Shown: piece after piece, positions 2,493-33,202 of the stretch
How positions within the stretch are numbered: the first letter of the stretch is position 1
How the letters are laid out: each line of letters starts with the position of its first letter
Origin: a virus
Length of the DNA stretch: 42,539 nt
Reading direction: 5' to 3' (one strand)
Virus record (IMG/VR): IMGVR_UViG_3300024518_003154
Span: 1-42,539 of that record
Position numbers and translations under genes: made by a program
The notes under the pieces: generated by a model
What the model was told of the DNA's origin: nothing
Seen by the model: only the letters and a program-made list of their open reading frames with translations
The model's database searches: none

Positions 2493-3200
2493 TTAATTAA
2501 GTTTAAAGTAACCTGTGTTTAGAATTGAATGATAAGTGTCTAATCCTCTAATATTAACATAGTAAATATCTAGGATACCCGAATACTTAATAGCTAAATA
2601 ATTGATTAATTCTGGAAAAGACTTTTTTAAGGCTTGTATTTGTGATTTAACTACAGTTTTAGGTACATCAATTAAATGATCGAAATGACTTTTTCTGTAC
2701 ATCACATTTATTGAAATAGAGTTTTTCTTTATTCTGCTTAAAGTTCTTTTTGAAAGACCTATATACTCTTCTTGTATAGACATTGCAAAAGTATGTTTCT
2801 TTGACTCGCCCTTTGTTCGACTCCGTTTAACTTTACCTGTCTCAACTAAAAAAGTGTATAGTAATTCTTTAAGAATATCTAACTCTTCTTCATCAATCTT
2901 TATTGTTTTTTCTTTTTTATTGCATTCTTTATCTTTATGCCAAGCTTTTCTTCCCACTAACCATAAACCAGATTTGGTTCTATACATCAACTTGTGTTCT
3001 ATCAACGTGTTGACATACCTGTATCCTGAAGATGTTGTTATTTTTAATTCTTGGAAAGCTCTTTTAATTAAATCTGAATCTACTTTTCCAGAAGAATGGA
3101 TTTGCAAATAAACATACAACCTAAATTCTCGATATATTTTTTTCTCTAAAATATATTTAGCTTGAGTTTTAGTTACGCTGTATTTGTTATTCTGCTCCAT
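2493..3200 (-). CDS. Winged-helix DNA-binding protein (regulator or initiator)
   Basis: The 235-residue, Lys-rich protein heads the left-hand leftward operon. Residues about 20-85 ('FRLYVYLQIHSSGKVDSDLIKRAF...SSGYRYVNTLIEHKLMYRT...LWLVGRKA') read as a winged helix with a recognition helix and a beta wing. A second helix-turn-helix-like stretch, 'MSIQEEYIGLSKRTLSRIKKNS', lies near residues 140-165. Two DNA-binding units suit a phage regulator or a replication initiator; I cannot choose between them. It is preceded by a structured leader with an intrinsic terminator ending about 8 nt before the ATG, so its expression is probably attenuated. It is a natural first candidate for the factor that binds the dispersed motif, but that is speculation. 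Confidence 0.55.
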   Translation of the reverse strand: MEQNNKYSVTKTQAKYILEKKIYREFRLYVYLQIHSSGKVDSDLIKRAFQELKITTSSGYRYVNTLIEHKLMYRTKSGLWLVGRKAWHKDKECNKKEKTIKIDEEELDILKELLYTFLVETGKVKRSRTKGESKKHTFAMSIQEEYIGLSKRTLSRIKKNSISINVMYRKSHFDHLIDVPKTVVKSQIQALKKSFPELINYLAIKYSGILDIYYVNIRGLDTYHSILNTGYFKLN

Positions 3201-3312
3201 AAAATGAAAAAACCGAAGAACGTAGGAGCGTGTTCTTCGGTTTTACTAATACTCCAAGATTTGACTTGGAATGTTTTTAATGCTTTTACCTTGTCTGCTC
3301 CTACAAAGGTAC
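3201..3312 (-). ncRNA. Structured leader with pseudoknot-capable terminator (candidate attenuator or small RNA)
   Basis: Read on the minus strand from the predicted start near 3312, the RNA first shows GUAGGAGC (3304-3297), then a 6-bp hairpin UCCAAG/CUUGGA (3270-3253). A 13-bp terminator hairpin (3244-3209) follows, whose 10-nt loop contains GCUCCUAC (3229-3222), then a run of U. The loop is perfectly complementary over 8 bases to the upstream GUAGGAGC. The AUG of the winged-helix gene is at 3200. A short terminated RNA, or ligand- or protein-controlled read-through into the operon, would both fit. Confidence 0.5.
3209..3244 (-). terminator. Intrinsic terminator in the leader of the winged-helix gene
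   Basis: AAAACCGAAGAAC (3209-3221) pairs with GTTCTTCGGTTTT (3232-3244). On the minus strand the hairpin is followed by six U and then, after seven bases, by the start codon. Confidence 0.75.
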
Positions 3313-3317
3313 TGTAA

Positions 3318-3347
3318 CAAATATAATGCTTTTACGCTAAAAAACAA
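3318..3347 (-). promoter_or_regulatory. Bacteroidota-type promoter for the left leftward operon
   Basis: On the minus strand TTG (3347-3345), 19 nt, then TATATTTG (3325-3318), matching the TTG-N-TAnnTTTG form. It would start the structured leader. Confidence 0.6.
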
Positions 3348-3392
3348 AATCCCTGAATAACGTTATTGGACAACCGTTAAACCAGGGATTTT
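3346..3392. other. Long-stem hairpin in the divergent region
   Basis: AAAATCCCTG (3346-3355) pairs with CAGGGATTTT (3383-3392). The 27-nt loop contains the perfect palindrome AATAACGTTATT (3356-3367). It abuts the leftward -33 box, so it may be an operator or a terminator shielding it from other transcription. Together with the leader this accounts for most of the divergent gap; 3393-3484 shows only a weak rightward -7 box. Confidence 0.55.
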
Positions 3393-3472
3393 ATGTAGCC
3401 CGAATATGAGAGTACCTACTCCCTCAAATCGACTTAACAAACATAGGGAATACTTTTTTGAAAGAAAAGAGT

Positions 3473-3480
3473 TATCTTTG
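3473..3480 (+). promoter_or_regulatory. Possible -7 box of the rightward block
   Basis: TATCTTTG matches TAnnTTTG exactly, but it lies only 5 nt before the ATG at 3485 and the nearest TTG is 12 nt upstream rather than about 20. If real, the mRNA would be nearly leaderless. Confidence 0.25.
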
Positions 3481-3484
3481 ATAT

Positions 3485-4129
3485 ATGCAGAAAATTATAG
3501 ATTTATTAAAAATGACAAGAGCTACTTTGCTGTTAATTGTTTTAGGGCTTATTGTAGTGTGGTTTTTGAATTGGAAAACTGGTAGACAGAAGGATATGAT
3601 CAGCCAATTGAATAGCGTGATTGAATCTCAAAATCAAGAGGTAAAGGTATGGAAAGACAAAGAAGGCAATAGCAGAGCAAGAGCAATGACCGCAGTTGTT
3701 GACAGGAGAACCATAGAGGAACTATCTAAACAAGAAGGTAGTCATTACAGTAATTTAAGTAAAGAGTTCTTAGAGCTAAGGAAAAACCTTAAGAACCTTA
3801 ATTCACATTCAAGTACACACACTAAAACTATAGTAGAAGTTAATACGATTCTACATGATACGGTTTATATACAGGCTGATGGAACACAGGTTGCAGCTAA
3901 GAGGGTTTACTGGAAAGATGATTTAGGATTTAATAGCTTTAAGGGATCTCTTGTCGACAGTGTTTTATTTGGGGAGATAGAGGTTAACGATTCACTAGAG
4001 GTTGTAGTCTATTGGAAAAGGAAACACAAAATAATCGGTAAAAAGATATACCATACAGAGGTTAAAAGTAAAAACCCTAGTACGAATATTGTCAATGTAT
4101 CAAGTATTGTATTAAAGGACACTAAGTAA
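3485..4129 (+). CDS. Membrane-anchored coiled-coil protein, possible inner-membrane spanin
   Basis: The 214-residue protein has one N-terminal membrane helix (residues about 11-30, 'ATLLLIVLGLIVVWFLNW'). A long polar coiled-coil-like region follows to about residue 110, then a beta-rich C-terminal part with paired Val/Ile strands. A single N-terminal anchor plus a periplasmic coiled coil is the layout of Rz-type inner spanins and of DUF6549-like Bacteroidota phage proteins. No outer spanin, holin or lysin was recognised beside it. It opens the rightward block and contains one dispersed motif site. Role inferred from topology only. Confidence 0.45.
   Translation: MQKIIDLLKMTRATLLLIVLGLIVVWFLNWKTGRQKDMISQLNSVIESQNQEVKVWKDKEGNSRARAMTAVVDRRTIEELSKQEGSHYSNLSKEFLELRKNLKNLNSHSSTHTKTIVEVNTILHDTVYIQADGTQVAAKRVYWKDDLGFNSFKGSLVDSVLFGEIEVNDSLEVVVYWKRKHKIIGKKIYHTEVKSKNPSTNIVNVSSIVLKDTK
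3701..3712 (+). repeat. Dispersed motif site 4
   Basis: GACAGGAGAACC, read in frame as Asp-Arg-Arg-Thr. Confidence 0.7.
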
Positions 4130-4141
4130 AAACTATGGGAA

Positions 4142-4172
4142 TTGCAAAAGAAACAGCAATTTTGTACTTTTG
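4142..4172 (+). promoter_or_regulatory. Promoter upstream of the terminase genes
   Basis: TTG (4142-4144), 20 nt, TACTTTTG (4165-4172), then 24 nt to the ATG at 4197. A short hairpin AATTGC/GCAATT (4140-4161) overlaps the -33 region and may serve as a weak terminator for the previous gene. Confidence 0.6.
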
Positions 4173-4196: not shown

Positions 4197-4847
4197 ATGG
4201 CGAGTAAAGAAATTTCAAATTATCTAAGTCTTGATTACTCTCAAACAATGTTTGATGTGGTAAAAGAGGGCTTGTCGTATTTGAATGAATATACAGAATT
4301 AAGGCTGTACCCAGAGTTTACATCTATAAAAGACAAGAATGCCAACGAGTTGATGAAGTTTGTGTTCTTATGCTACGATGTAAAGTCTCCATTGATAGGG
4401 ATAAAGAATTACGAAAAAAGAAAAGGGATTGCTGCTGAATTGGCTGGAGTCCCTAAAAATAAAATAAAGTCTCTAGTAGATGAAACAGATAGTCAAGTGA
4501 CTGCAATGGTTACTTGTTATATAGCAGAGGTTCAGGGGAATAGAAAGTTCCAATTATTAGTAGCTAGTGAGCAAATGTATAGTTCTACATTAAAGAACTT
4601 AAACGAACCGATTGATACCGAAGATGCTGAAGAATTTGAAAAGCTCACAAAGATGAGGTTTGAGAATATTAAAAAGGCAAAGGAGTTGGTTGGAGAGATT
4701 GAAGATTTAGAAAAAGAAATATTCCCTGATTACGGAAGTGTAAGGAAGATATTAAATGACAAGATAAAATCAGAATTTAAGTCAGGCCCAGCAGATTCTC
4801 TTTATAAAGTAAAAGCTAAACGAACTCCCTTGAATGTCGAAAATTAA
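4197..4847 (+). CDS. Small terminase subunit candidate
   Basis: The 216-residue protein is almost wholly helical. The N-terminal half includes 'EKRKGIAAELAGVPKN', which could be a small DNA-binding helix pair. The C-terminal helix (about residues 140-190, 'KMRFENIKKAKELVGEIEDLEKEIF') could support oligomerisation. No family signature is clear. The call rests on position: it lies directly before the large terminase, overlapping it by 14 nt, behind its own promoter. An unrelated small packaging or regulatory protein is the alternative. Confidence 0.45.
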   Translation: MASKEISNYLSLDYSQTMFDVVKEGLSYLNEYTELRLYPEFTSIKDKNANELMKFVFLCYDVKSPLIGIKNYEKRKGIAAELAGVPKNKIKSLVDETDSQVTAMVTCYIAEVQGNRKFQLLVASEQMYSSTLKNLNEPIDTEDAEEFEKLTKMRFENIKKAKELVGEIEDLEKEIFPDYGSVRKILNDKIKSEFKSGPADSLYKVKAKRTPLNVEN

Positions 4848-9323: not shown

Positions 9324-9354
9324 TTGTATATAATGTATTATTTTAGTATTTTTG
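9324..9354 (+). promoter_or_regulatory. Promoter upstream of scaffold and capsid genes
   Basis: TTG (9324-9326), 20 nt, TATTTTTG (9347-9354), in the 82-nt gap after the portal gene. The spacing is the same as before the terminase genes. Confidence 0.6.
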
Positions 9355-9386: not shown

Positions 9387-10538
9387 ATGCCTGAAGAAAA
9401 TAACATACAAGAAGATATTGTGGTGTTCGGCCCACCTTCAACTGAAGATACTTCATCCTCTGGTCAGGATGATATTCAGTTAGAGACAGGAGAACCCTCA
9501 AACACGACTGATGATGGAGGCGCAACCGATTCAGTCAACGGTAGCGAAGCGCAAGCTACTGAAGTGCCAAATGAAAGTACAAGTTCATCAGCTCCTGAGC
9601 AGACAGATCACTCTGAGGCGTTAAGTCAGTATGGCTTAAAATCTGTAGATGAATTAGTAACAGAGTATGGTAAATTAAAGGACGCTCCACCCCAACCGCC
9701 ACAGATTGAGGATGAGTTTGTTCAGAGATACCTAGAGTTTACTTCAAAAGGAGGAGACAAGGATACCTTTCTAAAAACGGTAAGTGTAGATTACGAATCT
9801 ATGGATACCATCGATATTTTAAGAAACCAGTATTTATTGGAAAATCCTGATGTTGATTCTACTAAGGCTTCAAAACTATTTGATCTTGAATTTGATCAAA
9901 AATATGGTTATGATCCCGACTATGTAGATGATAGCGAGAAGGAATTAAAGGATCTCAAATTAGAAATGGAGAGGGAGAAAGCTTTGTCATCTCTCAAGGA
10001 ACACCAAGAATCTATTCTTAAAGTTCCAGAATCCGCTTCTACTCCTGATAATAATGAGCTTTCTGAGCAGGAAGCTAAATTTGTTGAATCTTATAATTCT
10101 GAATTAAAAGATTTGATGAGCAAGTTTGATTCAGTTGAGTACATGGTGGATGATAAGACAGAGAACAGGTTTGTCTATAATCCTGATGCTGACGTTAAAG
10201 CTAAAGTTAACGAACTATTGTCTGTTCCATACGTGAATCCTTCTGATGATCCTGAGATGTTCATGAAGACACTAACGGGGCAGGTGTATTTTGATGGTGA
10301 AGGTAACATTGACCTTAACAAAGCGAAAGACATAATGGCGTTTGTTGCTAACCCTAATTCCTATCGGCAGAAATTGTTCGAACATGGAGTTAAGAAGGGA
10401 CAAGAGAACCATATAATTTCTCGTAAGAACATATCTACTACAACAAAGGATGATTCTTTTGATGGTGGTGGTGAGGCTTCTGTAGATGATGTTGTATTCT
10501 CTAGTTCTAGAAACAGGGGTAGAAACAGTCGTTGGTAA
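9387..10538 (+). CDS. Scaffolding protein
   Basis: The 383-residue protein is strongly acidic and lies between portal and capsid genes, the usual scaffold site. The first 75 residues are a low-complexity Glu/Asp/Ser/Thr tail without predicted structure. The central part has long charged helices, such as 'DDSEKELKDLKLEMEREKALSSLKEHQESIL', suited to dimeric coiled coils. The basic end 'SRNRGRNSRW' resembles the short basic tails by which scaffolds bind the capsid protein. A capsid maturation protease motif was not seen. It carries one dispersed motif site near its start. Confidence 0.7.
   Translation: MPEENNIQEDIVVFGPPSTEDTSSSGQDDIQLETGEPSNTTDDGGATDSVNGSEAQATEVPNESTSSSAPEQTDHSEALSQYGLKSVDELVTEYGKLKDAPPQPPQIEDEFVQRYLEFTSKGGDKDTFLKTVSVDYESMDTIDILRNQYLLENPDVDSTKASKLFDLEFDQKYGYDPDYVDDSEKELKDLKLEMEREKALSSLKEHQESILKVPESASTPDNNELSEQEAKFVESYNSELKDLMSKFDSVEYMVDDKTENRFVYNPDADVKAKVNELLSVPYVNPSDDPEMFMKTLTGQVYFDGEGNIDLNKAKDIMAFVANPNSYRQKLFEHGVKKGQENHIISRKNISTTTKDDSFDGGGEASVDDVVFSSSRNRGRNSRW
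9485..9496 (+). repeat. Dispersed motif site 5
   Basis: GACAGGAGAACC in the scaffold gene, starting at a third codon position (Glu-Thr-Gly-Glu-Pro). Confidence 0.7.
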
Positions 10539-16401: not shown

Positions 16402-17022
16402 ATGTTAAATAATATAGCAGATAAAATATACTACATTAATCTAGATGCTAGAACGGATAGGCGTTCCGACATGGAGTCTGAATTTTCTAGATTGGGAATA
16501 ACGGCTGAAAGAGTTGTACCTGTGGATAAAGACACATTATCTATTGATGATGATTTTCTAGGTAGATATCCTGCAGGTGCTAAGAGTTTAAGGTTAGCTA
16601 CTATCGACATTCTTCAAGATGCTATCGATAATAATTATGATAAAATAATTATCTTGGAGGATGATGTAAAGTTTAAAAAATACTTTAATGATTACGAAGT
16701 GTTTTTAGATAATCTACCTGATGATTGGGAGATGTTTCATTTTGGATGTTGGCCTTTAAAAGGTAATCCATCTAAAACATTCAAGGGTGGATTTCGTTTA
16801 AGAAGGATTGATAAGGCTGAAGGATGTCATGCTTATATGATTAATAGAGATATGATATCTTTATATAAAACATTGTTAGAAACTTATGATGCTCCTATCG
16901 ATTATGTAACGGCAGAGTATGTTCATACTAGAGGTAATAGTTATTCTTTTCACAAGAACTTGTCTCAACAAAAGTCTGGATGGAGTGATATTTCTGAATC
17001 AAACGAAAATAGAGATATATAA
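16402..17022 (+). CDS. GT25-type glycosyltransferase
   Basis: The 206-residue protein opens with 'KIYYINLDARTDRR' (residues 8-21), the hallmark of glycosyltransferase family 25 (LPS/Lob-type). It has 'KIIILEDDVKF' with the metal-binding acidic triad at residues 86-88, followed by 'WEMFHFGCW' and 'GCHAYMINRDM'. Family members transfer sugar from a nucleotide donor to a glycan or protein acceptor. It is embedded in the virion block, 1 base after the spike gene and overlapping the next connector gene by one base. It is therefore co-translated with particle proteins, which hints at modification of a virion protein or of host surface glycan. The catalytic motif looks intact. Confidence 0.8.
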   Translation: MLNNIADKIYYINLDARTDRRSDMESEFSRLGITAERVVPVDKDTLSIDDDFLGRYPAGAKSLRLATIDILQDAIDNNYDKIIILEDDVKFKKYFNDYEVFLDNLPDDWEMFHFGCWPLKGNPSKTFKGGFRLRRIDKAEGCHAYMINRDMISLYKTLLETYDAPIDYVTAEYVHTRGNSYSFHKNLSQQKSGWSDISESNENRDI

Positions 17023-25376: not shown

Positions 25377-28300
25377 ATGCCTAACGAAGGAGATAATAAC
25401 AACCCATCAAAAATAGATTACAAAGATTTTGCTGCAAACATAAAACAGAAACATCCTGAAAACAAAGATGTACCTGATTTAGAATTAGCGGAAAAATGGA
25501 TAGAAAGATACCCTGACTATAAAGATCATATAACCTTACCTGTAAAAAAAAACGAATCTTCTCAAGAGTCTACGAATGGCTCTCAAGACCTCTCTTCTAA
25601 AGAGACTAATGGAGAGAAACTAAAACCTCTTACGTTAGGGGATGACACTTTAGCAGAAGAGACTCCTAAAGATGAGATGTATGGCGATCCATTAACTGTA
25701 GATCATCCGAAACCATACGATGAAACAAGTACTATTGATTTTTATAGATCTGTTGATTCATACTCCCCTTTAGGTGTAAATAACGTTGATACTAGAAGTG
25801 TTAGTGATTGGATGGGAAACTTGAATCCTAAATTAAATAGCTTTGAGGCCCTAAAAAAAAGAGAGGAAGAGAAGGATCAAGCAGGGTTTAATCGTGAAAA
25901 AGACATAAAAAACAGGTATAATACCGATCTAGAGAAAATAAAAGGCAATGTTAAAACAATGTCTGAATATTCTCAAGAAGATCTAAAAAAGCTAAAAGGA
26001 ACATCGTTTGGTGCTTTTTTGCCTGATATCGATGTACCTAGTGTAGATGCTGCCCCTAGATTTTTTCAACTTAAGGCTAATAGATTAAATGAATCTCAGG
26101 AAGATATAATTAGACAACTTGATGCTGTTCAAGAAGAATATAATTCTAATGTAGATAATAAACAGCTAGTTGCTGTTGGACTTGACAGTAAAGAACGGAT
26201 GGAGCTTGAAGCTCAGTCGTTACGAGATAAGAAGGGTGTTTTATTAAAACAGTTAGCTTTAGTTACTCATGAATTATCTGGTCTTAGAAAAATATATCCT
26301 ACTGCAGGATATAATGAAGAGCAAAGGATTAATAACGCTTCTCAAGAGGTTTTACATAGTGAATATCGCAGACAGTCAGAAAAACTTATGTCCGATCTAG
26401 GACTAGATTTAGAGGAGGCTACAGACAAGACGAGGATGCATTGGGGTACGGCAACCCCAAAAGAAAAAGAAAGCGATATAACTTTAATGAAGGAGTTTAT
26501 CGATTATTCTAAAATGGTTAAGAATGTAGGTAAATCTAAACAAGAGGTGTGGAAAGATATTCTTTATCAGAAATATTTCCCAATGCTTAAAGAAGCTGTA
26601 TCTAGGCATGACCCTCACACGATGGGGTGGGAGTCTAGGAATGAATGGATGGATAATCTTCAGAAACTAGATGAGGGGAGTCTATTTTTGAAGGGGAAAT
26701 TTATGGAGGGTAGTGAGATACAAGATTTGGTACGTAAATATCAGATTTTATATACTATGGCTGAAAAAAATCTTGATCCAATTAAGGTTTTTGGATGGGA
26801 GAAGCCAGATCCTGATAATACAGATTTCCCTACGGGGTGGGATTTGTTTTTTGGCCCTACATTACAAGAATATGGTGTTCATAAAGCTATAGGTAATGCT
26901 TTTTCAGGAACTTACGAAGGTGTTCAAGAGATGTTTTCTTTTTTACCTGATAGCTACAATGAGACGCAAATATCCGCGAATACTACATCCGCAGGTTTGT
27001 CAGACCCAATGGAACTTAGAAAGTTGATATCTGAGTCTTTTAGTGAGAATAATCTCCAAATGACGGATGGCCTTAAAAAATATGTTGAAAATCCTGAAGT
27101 ACAGGATTTAGTAGCGAGTACTATGAGAACAACAGCAAATTTAGGGATTAAAATGGCTGCTGGAAGTAAAGTATTAAAAGGATCTATAGGTTTATTTGAA
27201 GGGTTAAATCCAGCACTTGTTGGACAATATGCTCAATTAATTTCTGCGGTAGATAAGGTAAAAAAAACAACAACAAATCCTTTTGCTAAGGCTGGCGCAA
27301 ATTTAATATTAAATGCTCCTAAATTAATTGAGACTGGATTGAAGTATGAAACAGTTAATTTATTGTATAATGAAAAAGGAGCTAATTTCACATCAGGTGC
27401 TGCTGGACAGGCAGGTGCTGATTTGGCTGTATCTTTAATATCTAAATTGCCAGGGATAGCTAAATGGGCTGATACTGCTACCATAAAAATGATCGCCAAG
27501 ATGTTAGGAGGCTCAATGGGTGAGTTTACTGAAGAGTCTATTCAAACGATAAGTCAAGATGGTCTTGACAAGTATTTTGCAATGATGAAGGATGACAAGC
27601 AACGAGCTGCTTTCTTAGTCAGCACAATGGGAATGGGTATTATTGCAGGAGCTAATGCAGGTAACTTAGATATTACTAAATGGGCTACTAAGCATATAGA
27701 GTCTATGCCTCCAGAATTAAGAACATCACTTAAAGATTATTTAGGTCTTACTGAAATAGAGTCGGCAGTCGATGAGAAGATTGACGACAAGTCTAAAGCT
27801 TTACTTGAGACTATAGAAGAACCTGATGTAGATACGGAGGTTGACACAGACACAGAGGCTGAACCTGATGTAGATACGGAGGTTGACACAGACACAGAGG
27901 CTGAAGCTGATGTAGATACGGAGGTTGACACAGACACAGAGGCTGAAGCTGATGTAGATACGGAGGTTGACACAGACACAGAGGCTGAAGCTGATAAAAA
28001 AGCTAAAGTAGAAGCTGAGTCTGATGAAAAAACAGAAAATGAATTAAAGGATGAAATTGTACTTTACGAGTCTTTGAAAGAGAAATCTGATAGTAAAGAA
28101 GAAACAGAGTTCTTCGATAAAAAAATTGATGATAATCTTTCTAAATTAGATGCTATAGAGCAAGATAGATTGAGTGCAGAAGAAGAAACTATAAATGATT
28201 TTGATGATTCTGTAGGAGAAAAAGTTAATTACGAAGGAATTGAAGGGGCTTTATCTAAAACGGACGATGGATATCATGTTATAGATGATAATGGAGACGT

Positions 28301-31300
28301 ACACACTATAGAAGGAGGGTTATCGGGTAAAACGCCAACCGAACTAGGGGTTAAAAATGTATCAAAAGATAAATCCACAGTAGGGACTGAAAAAGAGTTG
28401 TCGGAAGACTCTCCTGTTATGGGGTTTGATCCTGAGTCAAATAAAGTTGTTGTTTATGGGAAGGAGTATGATTATTTAGGGGTTGAAACAGACAAGGAAG
28501 GTAACACTACAGCTATCCGAGTAAAGGATAAGAATGGCAAAACTAAATTTATTAGGAATGAGGACGCTATTTTAGAGGTTGAAATACAAAAAGAACTTTT
28601 CGAATCAGAAAATGCCACCTCAAATTGGACTCAAGAAGATCTTGAAGCTAAAATAAAAGAAACAAAAGTAAAAGAGAAGAACAGTGAAAAATCAAAGGAC
28701 AAACCTAAACCCAGCCGTGATCAAAAGGTTGCAGCAATTCAGCAAGAAAGATCAGTTGAAGCTGATAAAAGAGCTAAAGAAAAGTTAAAAGATCTAGCTA
28801 AAGCTAAAAAAGCTAAAGTAGAATCGAAGACTGAAACTGATGTAGACTCAAAAGTTGTTGACGAGAGTTCCAAAACTAAACCTGTTGATGAAAAAACAAA
28901 AGAAACCAAAAAAGGAAAAACAAAAGAAACAAAAGGAAGAGTTCAAAAAGAATCCTCCAAAGACTCTGGACGAGATACTGAGATCAGTGAAGGTTCAGGG
29001 GTTCAGTTAGAATCTAAAACAGAGAAAGATGGAATACAAGATGAAAAAACAGAACCGAGTACAGAAGGTTCAAAAGATGGCAGCAAAACTAAAAAAAGTA
29101 AGCCAGTACAAGAAGGATCAACAGGAACAAAAGTAGTCGTTCAAAAAGAATCCTCCAAAGACTCTGGACAAGATACTAAGAAGGATTCTAGTGCGCCTAA
29201 TTTTGAGACAAAACCTATTACATCTACAGAATCAGAGAGATCCGATAGATCTAAGAAGAGGATATCTAAAACGATGCCTCCTGAAGTGGCAGCTAAGGTT
29301 CATGCTATTCCAGAAGGAAAGATTAAGACTAAGGCAGATCTTAAGAAGTTAAAAGATAGCGTAGATCCTAAATACCATGCAGCAATCGATCGAGAGGTTT
29401 TTGATCATATACAAAGCAAAAAGGCGACAGAAAGAAGTAACAGGGTAAAGTCTCAAAAGAAATCTACTAGAAAATGGTCTTCAGAGAAAACTAGGAAACG
29501 TTTTGCAAGAGACGCTAAAAGGCTTGCTAAATCTGTTTTAGGTGTTGATGTAGAGACAGATCCTCAAGCTATACAAGATGCGTGGATAGCTAAAGGAAAA
29601 GTCGGATCTCCAGACCCTGCATTTCAACATGGTAACAAAGTTTATGTTGATATTGATCAGTCAGGCCCAGATTCATTACCTCATGAATTTGCTCATGTTT
29701 GGCTTCAATCTATTAAAAACCAATCCCCAGCGTTATTTCAAAAAGGGATAGATTTGATAGAGAATTCCCCTGAATGGAAGGAAGATTTTGGTGATCTTGA
29801 TGTAGATAAAGATAAAAAACTTGAGGAAGTAGAAGAAAGGCTTGCTGAGGCTATCGGTTTAGAGGTAGCGGACTTGTTGGATAAATCTAAGATAAAAAGA
29901 TGGGTAGATGATGTCAAGAGTTGGATAACAAAGAAGTTAAGGTTAACTCCAAGTGTCGATCTAAATAAGATGACTTTACCTAAAATGATTAAGATGGCAG
30001 CTAACGAGCTTGCCAGAGGAAAAGGAGGATTGGTAGTATCTAATTTAAAAGAACCTGAAACAGCGGATTTCAATCCATCTACATTTAAGATGACAGATGC
30101 TAATGTTAAAAACTATTATGCTTTTAAAGCTATAGAAGAGTCTGTTTTATCCAACAACGAAGAGATGTTAGAGATTGTTGAACAATCAAAGATTGAGACT
30201 GTAAGGAGTTATTGGAATGGCTTTATCAATTTTATAGCTGATAACGATAGGTCATGGGACGTATTTCAAGAAAAAATCAAGAAGAATTATCGGAAAAAAG
30301 TTTCTGAAGAAATAAAAAGACAAAGAGATAGCGGTAAAATTGGTCATAAAGAAGCTAAGGCTATGAAAAAAGCTATGAATAGCAAAGCTTTTGAGAAAAC
30401 AATTGGAGATGCTGCTGATGTATATGCTCTTTTAGATTTACAAGGGACAAAAACTTCTGGTAAGTTTAATAATTGGGCTAAAACTTGGTTTGGTTCATCT
30501 TCAGAAGAAGATTCTCATGGAGGTCTTATCCATATACTTTCATATAGCACTAATACTTCACTCAAAAAATTTGGAGAGAGAAAATTAGATGAGAACGCTA
30601 TATTATATAAGCTTAGAGAAGAAGGGTTGACTTTAAGTGACGTAGGGTTTTGGAGACATTTAAATCATGCTGCTGAAAGAAACACTAGGGGTGCTGAGAT
30701 TGTATATGAAACGTTAAAAAAAGAGATAGAAAAAGGCAATAAAGATTGGTTTTCAAAGAAAGGTGTTTCTGAAGAAACTATTAACGATATAATGTCTGAG
30801 TTGAGTAAAGCCAAGAAAGGCTTAGATAAAGATTTAAATATAGAGTTAGAAAAAGCTAAGAAAATTCAAGATAAAGATGAGAGAAAGGTGTTTAGAGATA
30901 AAGCTAGGGAGGCACACAATAACGAGCTATATAAGGTTATAGAAAATATAGCTGGGGAAGCCTTATTGGAAACGGATTTAGCCTCAATAATCCCTGTTAA
31001 AACATCAGGATTCACGACAGAAGATGCTCAACATAGAATTGATAAAATCAAAGGAGAATCCACTCCAGAGCAACTAAAACTCTTAGAGGACGTTAGCAAA
31101 GAGATGGGTAAGGCTTTTCATGATATATTAGACATGAAAGTTGATGCAGGGATTATCACTGCTGAATCAAGAGATTTTCTAAAGGGAATGTTTGAAAACT
31201 ATGTCCCGTTAAGAGTTATAGAGAAGACAGATCCTTCATCTAAATTAGGTCGAGGAGTTTATAGTGATAATATTAAAAAGTTGCAGCCAAGCGATAAATA

Positions 31301-33164
31301 TGATTACTGGGAGAGGGAAAATCCTGAAGTGGCTATGTTTTCAGATTACCAAAGAGCTTTGCAAGATGTTCATAAGAATGAGACATTGACAGGGGTAGCT
31401 GAAATGATTAGATCTCATCCAACCGCAACGATTAACGGAAAAGTTGCATGGGAGGTTTCTGATAAAAAACCTGTGGGTATATCGACTAAAAAAGGGGATA
31501 TAGAGCCAATCCCATTCATGGAGAATGGAGAGTTAAAATGGATTATGATTAGAGATTACAACCTTTACAAATCCCTTGGCCCTAAAACTCCGAATCCTAA
31601 ATGGCTTAAACAATCGTTGAGGGTAGCACAATTTGCTGGCAATTTCTGGAAAACAGGGAAAACTGCTTTGAATATCGAATTTATCCCAACAAACTTTTCA
31701 AAAGATTTTCAAGAAGCTCTTCTAAACATCTCTATGCATGATAAAAAGGGGGTTAGACGAGCTGTAGCTAAAGGAGTTTTCCCTTCGATGGGTGCGGTTC
31801 GTAGAGTTACTTTAGGAAAAGGGAATCCTTCGAATAAATACGATGCTGCTTTGAATCGATTAATAGAAGCTGGAGGAACTATTGATTTTCTAGATAGAGC
31901 AGATATGCAGTCTATTCAAAAAATGATTAATAAACAGGCTAGTAAGTTTAAAAAATCAACACCTGGCGTTGGGGCTATAAAAAGGGTTACTAATATAGGA
32001 GTATTGCCTCTAAGAGCTTCTTTTAAAGCTATCATCATGGCTAATAAAATGACAGAATTAGGGGTTAGATTAAGTGCTTTCGAAGCTTTGACATCTAGGG
32101 GTGTTAGTGATCAAAAAGCAGCTCAAATAGCTAAAAACTTGACTGTTAACTTCGATAAAAAAGGGGATGCAGGGGTTATAATGAATGCTTTATATATGTT
32201 TTCTAACGCATCGGTAGGAGGGAAGCTTGTAATGAATAAAGGTCTTATTAGATCAAAACGTATTCAAAAAACACTTTTGGCTGTTGCTGCTTGGAGGGTG
32301 GCTGATCTTGCAGCAATGTATATGCATGATGATGGCGAGGAGGATAATCCTGACAAGCAAACTATGTCGAAAATGTATGATCATGAGATAAGGGGGAATT
32401 GGATGATTCCATTCGGGGATGAAATCTACACTATTCCTATACCTAATGGTATGCAAGAATACACCTCGATAATAGATGACTTGTTCTTCTTAGCTATGGG
32501 CAAAAAAACTGTCCCTGAAGTCGTTGTAGATCAAACATATTCACAAGCTAGAGGATGGTTGCCTTTTATGCCTGCTAATAAAGATATGACGGGTAAAGCA
32601 GGGGCTTGGATGCCTACATTAGCTCAATGGCCTTTTGAATATTCAGACAATGTAGATTATTTCACAGGACATCCAATGTATAGAGATCAATACAGTAAGT
32701 TTTCTAAAGAGTATAATTACGAAATGGGAAAGGCAAACGATCCTGAATACCTAAAAGATATAACAAAAGTGTTGTTTGATGCCACTAACGGGAATGTTGA
32801 TATAAATCCATCGGTTATATATGATTTTCTAAATAATTATGCACAAGGAGGGGTGCATTCTGTAATTGATGCAGGAAGAAGGGGTTTTGAAGCTGCTAAT
32901 GGGAATACGGAAAAAATCCTTTTGGCTCAGAAGGTTTCGGTAGGAGCTAAAGAGGGATCTAGAAGTAGGCTTATTAAGCAGTATGAACGGGAACTTAGGG
33001 CTTTATTAGATAAAGGGTCGGAGAATAAGTTAACTAAAGAGGAGAAAGATAAAATCAAACCTTTATTGACTATCCTTGCAAAATATAAGTCTAAGTCATA
33101 TTCTTATCTTAGAAAGGATGCTAGTGCTGCACTTACCCAACAAAAGGAACGATATGGTAAGTAA
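25377..33164 (+). CDS. Giant polyvalent ejection protein (zincin plus LPD38-like)
   Basis: The 2595-residue protein is the last and largest internal protein. Residues 1-40 have a 'FAANIKQKHPENKDVPDLELAEKWIERYPDYKDHI'-type entry helix. Helical parts follow to about 800, then an acidic tandem repeat (817-872) and a long charged disordered stretch to about 1330. Residues 1434-1441 (LPHEFAHV) give the HExxH motif of zinc metallopeptidases, with downstream 'EEVEERLAEAIG' offering a third ligand. Near residue 2257, 'NFDKKGDAGVIMNALYMFSNASVGG' resembles the LPD38 domain of large polyvalent proteins. These are injected with DNA and act on host targets or the envelope. No sugar hydrolase was recognised. 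Confidence 0.7.
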   Translation: MPNEGDNNNPSKIDYKDFAANIKQKHPENKDVPDLELAEKWIERYPDYKDHITLPVKKNESSQESTNGSQDLSSKETNGEKLKPLTLGDDTLAEETPKDEMYGDPLTVDHPKPYDETSTIDFYRSVDSYSPLGVNNVDTRSVSDWMGNLNPKLNSFEALKKREEEKDQAGFNREKDIKNRYNTDLEKIKGNVKTMSEYSQEDLKKLKGTSFGAFLPDIDVPSVDAAPRFFQLKANRLNESQEDIIRQLDAVQEEYNSNVDNKQLVAVGLDSKERMELEAQSLRDKKGVLLKQLALVTHELSGLRKIYPTAGYNEEQRINNASQEVLHSEYRRQSEKLMSDLGLDLEEATDKTRMHWGTATPKEKESDITLMKEFIDYSKMVKNVGKSKQEVWKDILYQKYFPMLKEAVSRHDPHTMGWESRNEWMDNLQKLDEGSLFLKGKFMEGSEIQDLVRKYQILYTMAEKNLDPIKVFGWEKPDPDNTDFPTGWDLFFGPTLQEYGVHKAIGNAFSGTYEGVQEMFSFLPDSYNETQISANTTSAGLSDPMELRKLISESFSENNLQMTDGLKKYVENPEVQDLVASTMRTTANLGIKMAAGSKVLKGSIGLFEGLNPALVGQYAQLISAVDKVKKTTTNPFAKAGANLILNAPKLIETGLKYETVNLLYNEKGANFTSGAAGQAGADLAVSLISKLPGIAKWADTATIKMIAKMLGGSMGEFTEESIQTISQDGLDKYFAMMKDDKQRAAFLVSTMGMGIIAGANAGNLDITKWATKHIESMPPELRTSLKDYLGLTEIESAVDEKIDDKSKALLETIEEPDVDTEVDTDTEAEPDVDTEVDTDTEAEADVDTEVDTDTEAEADVDTEVDTDTEAEADKKAKVEAESDEKTENELKDEIVLYESLKEKSDSKEETEFFDKKIDDNLSKLDAIEQDRLSAEEETINDFDDSVGEKVNYEGIEGALSKTDDGYHVIDDNGDVHTIEGGLSGKTPTELGVKNVSKDKSTVGTEKELSEDSPVMGFDPESNKVVVYGKEYDYLGVETDKEGNTTAIRVKDKNGKTKFIRNEDAILEVEIQKELFESENATSNWTQEDLEAKIKETKVKEKNSEKSKDKPKPSRDQKVAAIQQERSVEADKRAKEKLKDLAKAKKAKVESKTETDVDSKVVDESSKTKPVDEKTKETKKGKTKETKGRVQKESSKDSGRDTEISEGSGVQLESKTEKDGIQDEKTEPSTEGSKDGSKTKKSKPVQEGSTGTKVVVQKESSKDSGQDTKKDSSAPNFETKPITSTESERSDRSKKRISKTMPPEVAAKVHAIPEGKIKTKADLKKLKDSVDPKYHAAIDREVFDHIQSKKATERSNRVKSQKKSTRKWSSEKTRKRFARDAKRLAKSVLGVDVETDPQAIQDAWIAKGKVGSPDPAFQHGNKVYVDIDQSGPDSLPHEFAHVWLQSIKNQSPALFQKGIDLIENSPEWKEDFGDLDVDKDKKLEEVEERLAEAIGLEVADLLDKSKIKRWVDDVKSWITKKLRLTPSVDLNKMTLPKMIKMAANELARGKGGLVVSNLKEPETADFNPSTFKMTDANVKNYYAFKAIEESVLSNNEEMLEIVEQSKIETVRSYWNGFINFIADNDRSWDVFQEKIKKNYRKKVSEEIKRQRDSGKIGHKEAKAMKKAMNSKAFEKTIGDAADVYALLDLQGTKTSGKFNNWAKTWFGSSSEEDSHGGLIHILSYSTNTSLKKFGERKLDENAILYKLREEGLTLSDVGFWRHLNHAAERNTRGAEIVYETLKKEIEKGNKDWFSKKGVSEETINDIMSELSKAKKGLDKDLNIELEKAKKIQDKDERKVFRDKAREAHNNELYKVIENIAGEALLETDLASIIPVKTSGFTTEDAQHRIDKIKGESTPEQLKLLEDVSKEMGKAFHDILDMKVDAGIITAESRDFLKGMFENYVPLRVIEKTDPSSKLGRGVYSDNIKKLQPSDKYDYWERENPEVAMFSDYQRALQDVHKNETLTGVAEMIRSHPTATINGKVAWEVSDKKPVGISTKKGDIEPIPFMENGELKWIMIRDYNLYKSLGPKTPNPKWLKQSLRVAQFAGNFWKTGKTALNIEFIPTNFSKDFQEALLNISMHDKKGVRRAVAKGVFPSMGAVRRVTLGKGNPSNKYDAALNRLIEAGGTIDFLDRADMQSIQKMINKQASKFKKSTPGVGAIKRVTNIGVLPLRASFKAIIMANKMTELGVRLSAFEALTSRGVSDQKAAQIAKNLTVNFDKKGDAGVIMNALYMFSNASVGGKLVMNKGLIRSKRIQKTLLAVAAWRVADLAAMYMHDDGEEDNPDKQTMSKMYDHEIRGNWMIPFGDEIYTIPIPNGMQEYTSIIDDLFFLAMGKKTVPEVVVDQTYSQARGWLPFMPANKDMTGKAGAWMPTLAQWPFEYSDNVDYFTGHPMYRDQYSKFSKEYNYEMGKANDPEYLKDITKVLFDATNGNVDINPSVIYDFLNNYAQGGVHSVIDAGRRGFEAANGNTEKILLAQKVSVGAKEGSRSRLIKQYERELRALLDKGSENKLTKEEKDKIKPLLTILAKYKSKSYSYLRKDASAALTQQKERYGK
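27825..27992. repeat. Four tandem copies of a 42-bp acidic repeat
   Basis: Each unit encodes DVDTEVDTDTEAE followed by Pro or Ala. The copies are almost identical in DNA, the visible difference being CCT versus GCT at the last codon, so the array is young or kept homogeneous. Confidence 0.9.
28941..28979. repeat. 39-bp direct repeat, first copy
   Basis: Encodes VQKESSKDSGRDT; it matches 38 of 39 bases with 29139-29177, which is 198 bp (66 codons) downstream in the same frame. Confidence 0.8.
29139..29177. repeat. 39-bp direct repeat, second copy
   Basis: Encodes VQKESSKDSGQDT; the single base change relative to the copy at 28941 turns Arg into Gln. Confidence 0.8.
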
Positions 33165-33167
33165 AAA

Positions 33168-33202
33168 AATAACCCCTGAATCTGGGAGAGACAGGGGTTA
33201 TT
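33168..33202 (+). terminator. Intrinsic terminator-like hairpin after the giant gene
   Basis: AATAACCCCTG (33168-33178) pairs perfectly with CAGGGGTTATT (33192-33202) across a 13-nt loop, four bases after the stop. The T run is stronger on the minus strand, so it may act in both directions. Confidence 0.75.

Follow-up and report, generated by a model that had tools for sequence, protein, structure and literature searches.

The minus-strand operon of this phage begins with a gene whose start codon lies directly behind an intrinsic terminator, and the loop of that terminator is perfectly complementary to eight nucleotides near the 5' end of the same predicted transcript. This arrangement raises the question of whether the leader controls its own termination or is instead an ordinary terminator with a chance complement, or an independent small RNA. 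We addressed this question in the whole virus record of 42,539 bases, hereafter the window.

The terminase large subunit encoded in the window matched a PHROG terminase family but shared at most 34% identity with phage records, the closest matches being an uncultured podovirus, Maribacter phage Panino, the Flavobacterium elemo phages and Cellulophaga phi13:2, and at most 39% identity over most of its length with viral contigs. Given these low identities and the nature of the best matches, the virus appears from its sequence to be an isolated phage whose hosts are most likely Bacteroidota; where relatives have named hosts, their records list them as phages isolated from cultures of Flavobacterium or Cellulophaga strains. 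The leader occupies part of an intergenic region (3201-3484) that separates a minus-strand run of genes (3200 to 630), headed by a gene for a 235-aa protein, from a plus-strand run carrying the terminase and virion genes. The following elements, all on the minus strand, carry the argument:

3345-3348, minus strand: -33 element TTTG, an exact match to the -33 consensus, within the U tract of an upstream terminator
3318-3325, minus strand: -7 element TATATTTG, spacer 19, fitting TAHHTTTG
3324-3335, minus strand: 12-bp direct repeat GTAAAAGCATTA, copy 1, in the promoter spacer
3278-3289, minus strand: 12-bp direct repeat GTAAAAGCATTA, copy 2, at about +25 to +36 of the RNA
3205-3313, minus strand: predicted terminated leader or small RNA of about 109 nt, with ends placed from the promoter and terminator
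3287-3311, minus strand: 5' hairpin with loop AGGAGCAG (3302-3295), from stepwise folding
3297-3304, minus strand: octamer GUAGGAGC, the complement of the terminator loop
3251-3272, minus strand: middle hairpin, 8 bp, -9.3 kcal/mol by folding
3209-3244, minus strand: intrinsic terminator hairpin, 13 bp, loop ACGCUCCUAC, -16.0 kcal/mol, U tract GGUUUUUUCAUUUU
3222-3229, minus strand: GCUCCUAC, the partner of 3304-3297 within the terminator loop
2493-3200, minus strand: orphan gene of 235 aa, putative HTH/winged-helix protein, first of the minus-strand run

The primary sigma factor of Bacteroidota recognizes TTTG at -33 and TAHHTTTG at -7 (PMC6847099), and TTTG-N19-TATATTTG at 3348-3318 on the minus strand shows the full form of this grammar, so that the promoter proposed in a sequence-only reading of the region (as TTG-N19) is present where that reading put it. 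Numbering from the F. johnsoniae promoter, with a G at -5, predicts a start at about 3313 (PMC6847099). Among 13 promoter matches of this type in the window, 3 are intergenic (intergenic DNA makes up 6%; P 0.04), and a promoter search between the terminator and the ATG of the 235-aa gene returned no other match. The other two intergenic matches are on the plus strand, at 4142-4172 (before a 216-aa gene at 4197) and at 9324-9354 (before a gene at 9387). The promoter spacer also contains one copy of the repeat GTAAAAGCATTA, which the earlier reading did not mention; it is exact over 12 nt, with the copies 46 bp apart (shuffle P 0.0074 in the intergenic region). The two copies are candidate operators, to which a repressor such as the 235-aa protein might bind.

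The small hairpin, the 13-bp terminator, the octamer complement in its loop and the U run ending just before the start codon had all been located correctly. The terminator arms (3244-3232 and 3221-3209) form 13 perfect pairs around the loop ACGCUCCUAC at 3231-3222, the U run ends at 3207 with the ATG at 3200, and the loop is a perfect complement of 3304-3297 over 8 nt. What had not been spotted is the position of the octamer GUAGGAGC: six of its eight bases lie in the loop of the 5' hairpin and the remaining two at the top of the hairpin stem, which would make the contact with the terminator loop mainly a loop-loop pairing, extensible to 8 bp. The duplex strength is -8.7 kcal/mol for the 6-bp form and -12.7 kcal/mol for the 8-bp form. 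As a whole, the leader RNA is far more stably folded than shuffled versions of itself (z = -5.0, with 0 of 200 shuffles reaching its stability). Reading the hairpins with the plus strand as the sense strand was rejected, given weaker U tails and the lack of a good promoter. We also discarded AGGAGC as a Shine-Dalgarno or leader-peptide signal: no start codon lies at the proper distance, and Bacteroidota do not use Shine-Dalgarno sequences (PMC6847099). On the opposite strand, a short open frame (3204-3317, plus strand; MKKPKNVGACSSVLLILQDLTWNVFNAFTLSAPTKVL) spans nearly the whole leader and is probably due to chance.

Within this leader the complementarity exceeds what shuffling produces. With the loop held fixed, a complement of at least 8 nt arose in the shuffled leader with a probability of 0.0016, or 0.005 when 200 nt upstream were allowed, and a loop-to-loop complement of at least 6 nt in the minimum free energy (MFE) fold appeared in 15 of 6000 shuffles (0.0025). 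Among the 13 terminator-like hairpins of the window, this leader alone has a loop complement longer than 6 nt within 120 nt upstream. Multiplying the per-leader probability of 0.0016 by these 13 terminators gives a genome-wide chance of about 2%, which makes the complement notable across the genome but not decisive. Related phages showed no overall enrichment of loop-leader complements: 0 of 72 terminators in the loci of distant relatives had a loop complement of at least 7 nt, against about 2 expected, so that pairing of this kind is no common feature of these phages.

Searches for related leaders yielded no homologue. We found no relatives of the leader DNA by blastn against phages or by local blastn against terminase-bearing loci, nor among 46 genomes. 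Three DNA pattern scans, one asking for the terminator stem whatever its loop, one for the loop together with its closing pairs and one for the two octamers at a distance of 60-75 nt, retrieved only unrelated sequence; of the 240 octamer-pair matches, both strands counted, none lay within a hairpin longer than 7 bp. Rfam at its gathering threshold gave nothing credible for the leader, and a cmscan of positions 3190-3490 that covered every Rfam 15 family, with a cutoff of E 10, returned chance matches only, with no guanidine riboswitch among them. The leader is a single case, a real and statistically unusual structured leader.

The order in which the RNA folds bears directly on its possible function. 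The folds of the growing RNA were computed with ViennaRNA as stepwise MFE structures, in a model that scores neither pseudoknots nor polymerase kinetics. Before GCUCCUAC is transcribed, only the 5' and middle hairpins are present (-14.9 kcal/mol). Once the RNA ends at 3221-3215, the 8-bp GUAGGAGC/GCUCCUAC helix is favored (-22.5 vs -14.9 kcal/mol), which opens the 5' hairpin and encloses the 5' arm of the terminator. The terminator then takes over (-28.5 to -31.4 kcal/mol), and with its 3' arm complete it reaches -31.4 kcal/mol compared with -23.1 kcal/mol for the nested octamer fold. In these calculations, the nascent octamer helix is positioned to delay the terminator because it is most stable just before the 3' arm is made. 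For the complete leader, the calculation leaves the terminator loop about 90-100% unpaired, along with the AGGA core of the octamer, and a kissing contact would leave 2 nt (AC) free on the 5' side of the terminator loop and none on the 3' side, a geometry that is feasible for kissing loops.

The hairpin would also repress translation of the 235-aa gene, because the start region of this gene (-20 to +13) is the most paired among 39 genes (0.72 vs a mean of 0.48) and the gene has no A at -3, a base present at this position in 27 of the 39. The protein itself remains an orphan in every collection searched. It had no significant family or PDB match, and no relatives of the gene were found by two peptide-pattern scans of viral contigs and one of bacterial genomes (GTDB contigs), by tblastn against phages, in 28 phage-relative records or in about 440 Bacteroidota genomes. 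A single-sequence AlphaFold model reached a mean pLDDT of only 33, too poor for a fold search. The designation as a winged-helix gene is suggested only by the H-H-H-E-E order that this low-confidence model predicts and draws nothing from the family and PDB comparisons. Near this gene, an 83-aa protein (1786-2037) shares 53% identity over 53 residues with the product of a distant phage relative, while none was found for the 235-aa gene itself.

Taken together, these features suggest that the leader may be a transcription attenuator heading the minus-strand operon, with the terminator loop engaged by the leader itself, a reading to which we assign a rough probability of 0.45. Its anatomy is present in the sequence and computed folds: a promoter, an intrinsic terminator ahead of the first gene and an alternative pairing. 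We infer that the promoter is used, that termination occurs and that some signal sets the switch. RNA polymerase would start at about 3313, and the 5' hairpin would form with AGGAGC in its loop. As GCUCCUAC emerges, it would pair with GUAGGAGC, shutting the 5' arm of the terminator in a closed loop before the 3' arm exists. Should this helix persist, perhaps through a pause or with the aid of a protein or small molecule, the 13-bp hairpin would form late or incompletely and polymerase would read through into the operon; should it yield, the terminator would form, releasing a stable transcript of about 109 nt. The formed terminator would probably be capped by a loop-loop contact, the octamer being able to rejoin as a kissing contact, and on read-through RNA the terminator hairpin, 8 nt ahead of the AUG, would hinder translation of the first gene. 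As to the direction of the switch, we lean slightly toward antitermination over stabilized termination. The attenuator or cis-regulatory role proposed in the sequence-only reading is thus compatible with the way the elements are arranged, with the promoter grammar and with the computed folds; comparison spoke neither for nor against a function, as no homologous leader was found in the collections searched. Two further points count against it: the octamer pairs with the loop and with no stem arm, and hence does not compete directly with the terminator stem; and the chance of about 2% over the terminators of the window stands beside the failure to find a homologue of either the leader or the gene.

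A rival reading is an ordinary promoter-proximal or insulating intrinsic terminator, with the 8-nt complement and loop-loop geometry arising by chance, which we consider somewhat unlikely. The per-leader probability of 0.0016 comes to about 2% over 13 terminators, and the sequence-only reading picked the most striking case; no conservation can be demonstrated, and the relatives show no excess of such complements. However, chance would have to bring together the location in the loop, the promoter, the terminator beside the start codon and the strongest start-region structure of the genome, and the pairing is stable enough to form even if it was never selected. We judge it rather unlikely that the leader is a small RNA in its own right, about 109 nt long and acting in trans on phage or host messages, its 5' loop and terminator loop kissing (or pairing in a dimer) to protect it and the 235-aa gene being weakly expressed only by read-through. 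Such an RNA would be complete in itself, with a promoter, a structured body and a strong terminator, the next gene has a very poor start context, and a second structured, terminated segment adjoins it upstream; yet it has no Rfam match and no trans target in the phage, where matches to the 7-/8-mer core outside the leader all lie within coding regions, and the 235-aa gene would then be left with no other recognizable promoter.

The short transcript had also been likened to a phage immunity RNA, a resemblance that proved formal only. In P4 CI and P1 C4, the leader of an operon gives rise to a short RNA that contains self-complementary segments and acts on termination of the same operon. Such an RNA from the resident state would here pair in trans with the octamer in new leaders, forcing early termination of the operon, which we regard as very improbable. 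It would share the logic of self-complementary leader segments and a terminated short RNA, and the leader sequence GGAGCAGA recurs at the start codon of the 235-aa gene (3198-3191). But this repeat pairs with the loop over 5 bp only, and chance alone would be expected to produce such 8-mer repeats in 700 nt. The operon contains no second trans site beyond 5 bp, the other GTAGGAG(C) matches lie within coding regions, and the window offers no trans partner, the sole other GTAGGAGC being in a coding region at 32940. A non-systematic look at the annotated proteins noticed no integrase or other sign of lysogeny, and the relatives with named hosts are, as noted, recorded as phage isolates. The complement here lies, moreover, in the terminator loop. 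The pT181 and pIP501-type rep attenuators likewise have a terminator right before the first gene, with its formation depending on which of the competing pairings in the leader prevails, but in these systems an antisense RNA from the opposite strand is used and the pairing is to a terminator arm, and the phage leader has no convincing plus-strand promoter. Only this general logic is common to the immunity RNAs, the rep attenuators and the phage leader.

For the attenuator reading, the closest precedent is the guanidine-IV riboswitch (mepA / GGAM-1), in which a 5' stem-loop meets, through its loop, the terminal loop of the intrinsic terminator that stands directly before the gene, a kissing contact proposed to block completion of the terminator stem and give antitermination (PMC7736828, PMC11611296, PMC10907184). 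In the phage leader, AGGAGC in the 5' stem-loop is complementary to GCUCCU in the terminator loop, and the computed fold places them accordingly. Thus, the earlier statement that no known riboswitch class is matched is correct for Rfam, yet the architecture has a precedent. The phage leader differs in its phylum, in preceding an orphan phage gene rather than a guanidine exporter, and in having an 8-nt perfect complement and an extra middle hairpin; it has no Rfam match up to E 10, in a collection that may hold no guanidine-IV entry of its own. By analogy, it may work like a guanidine-IV riboswitch, a likeness that stops short of membership of the class. A more specific proposal, which we hold to be distinctly doubtful, is a riboregulator of a Bacteroidota phage whose leader, while still being transcribed, captures the terminator loop to come and so delays folding of the terminator; it would bring about ligand- or factor-dependent antitermination as in guanidine-IV while lying outside the known riboswitch classes. 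Capture of a terminator-hairpin loop is a rarely documented form of termination control, proposed mainly for the guanidine-IV riboswitch, and a literature search on RNA-based control in Bacteroidota phages found nothing, the topic being little described. This leader would provide a compact natural example in a phage operon, easily tested by a two-part compensatory mutant.

The segment directly upstream of the leader (3340-3445, minus strand) is also structured and terminated (z = -4.6) and is possibly a second small RNA. It contains a strong terminator hairpin (3394-3344) with the tail GUUUUUU, preceded by TATGTTTG (3445-3438). The U tract of this hairpin shares bases with the -33 box of the leader promoter, and the segment's own promoter is weak, with G at -9 and no TTTG at -33. 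Elsewhere in the window, a 2595-aa protein (25377-33164) carries internal repeats of the type EADVDTEVDTDTEA and, by its position, is a virion or injection protein; directly past the end of its gene lies a strong terminator-like hairpin (33168-33202; 11 bp) with a U-rich tail on the minus strand. Inside the block of virion genes, the ORF at 16402-17022 presumably encodes a protein resembling a family-25-type glycosyltransferase, judged by eye from the sequence (KIYYINLDARTDR ... ILEDDVKF).
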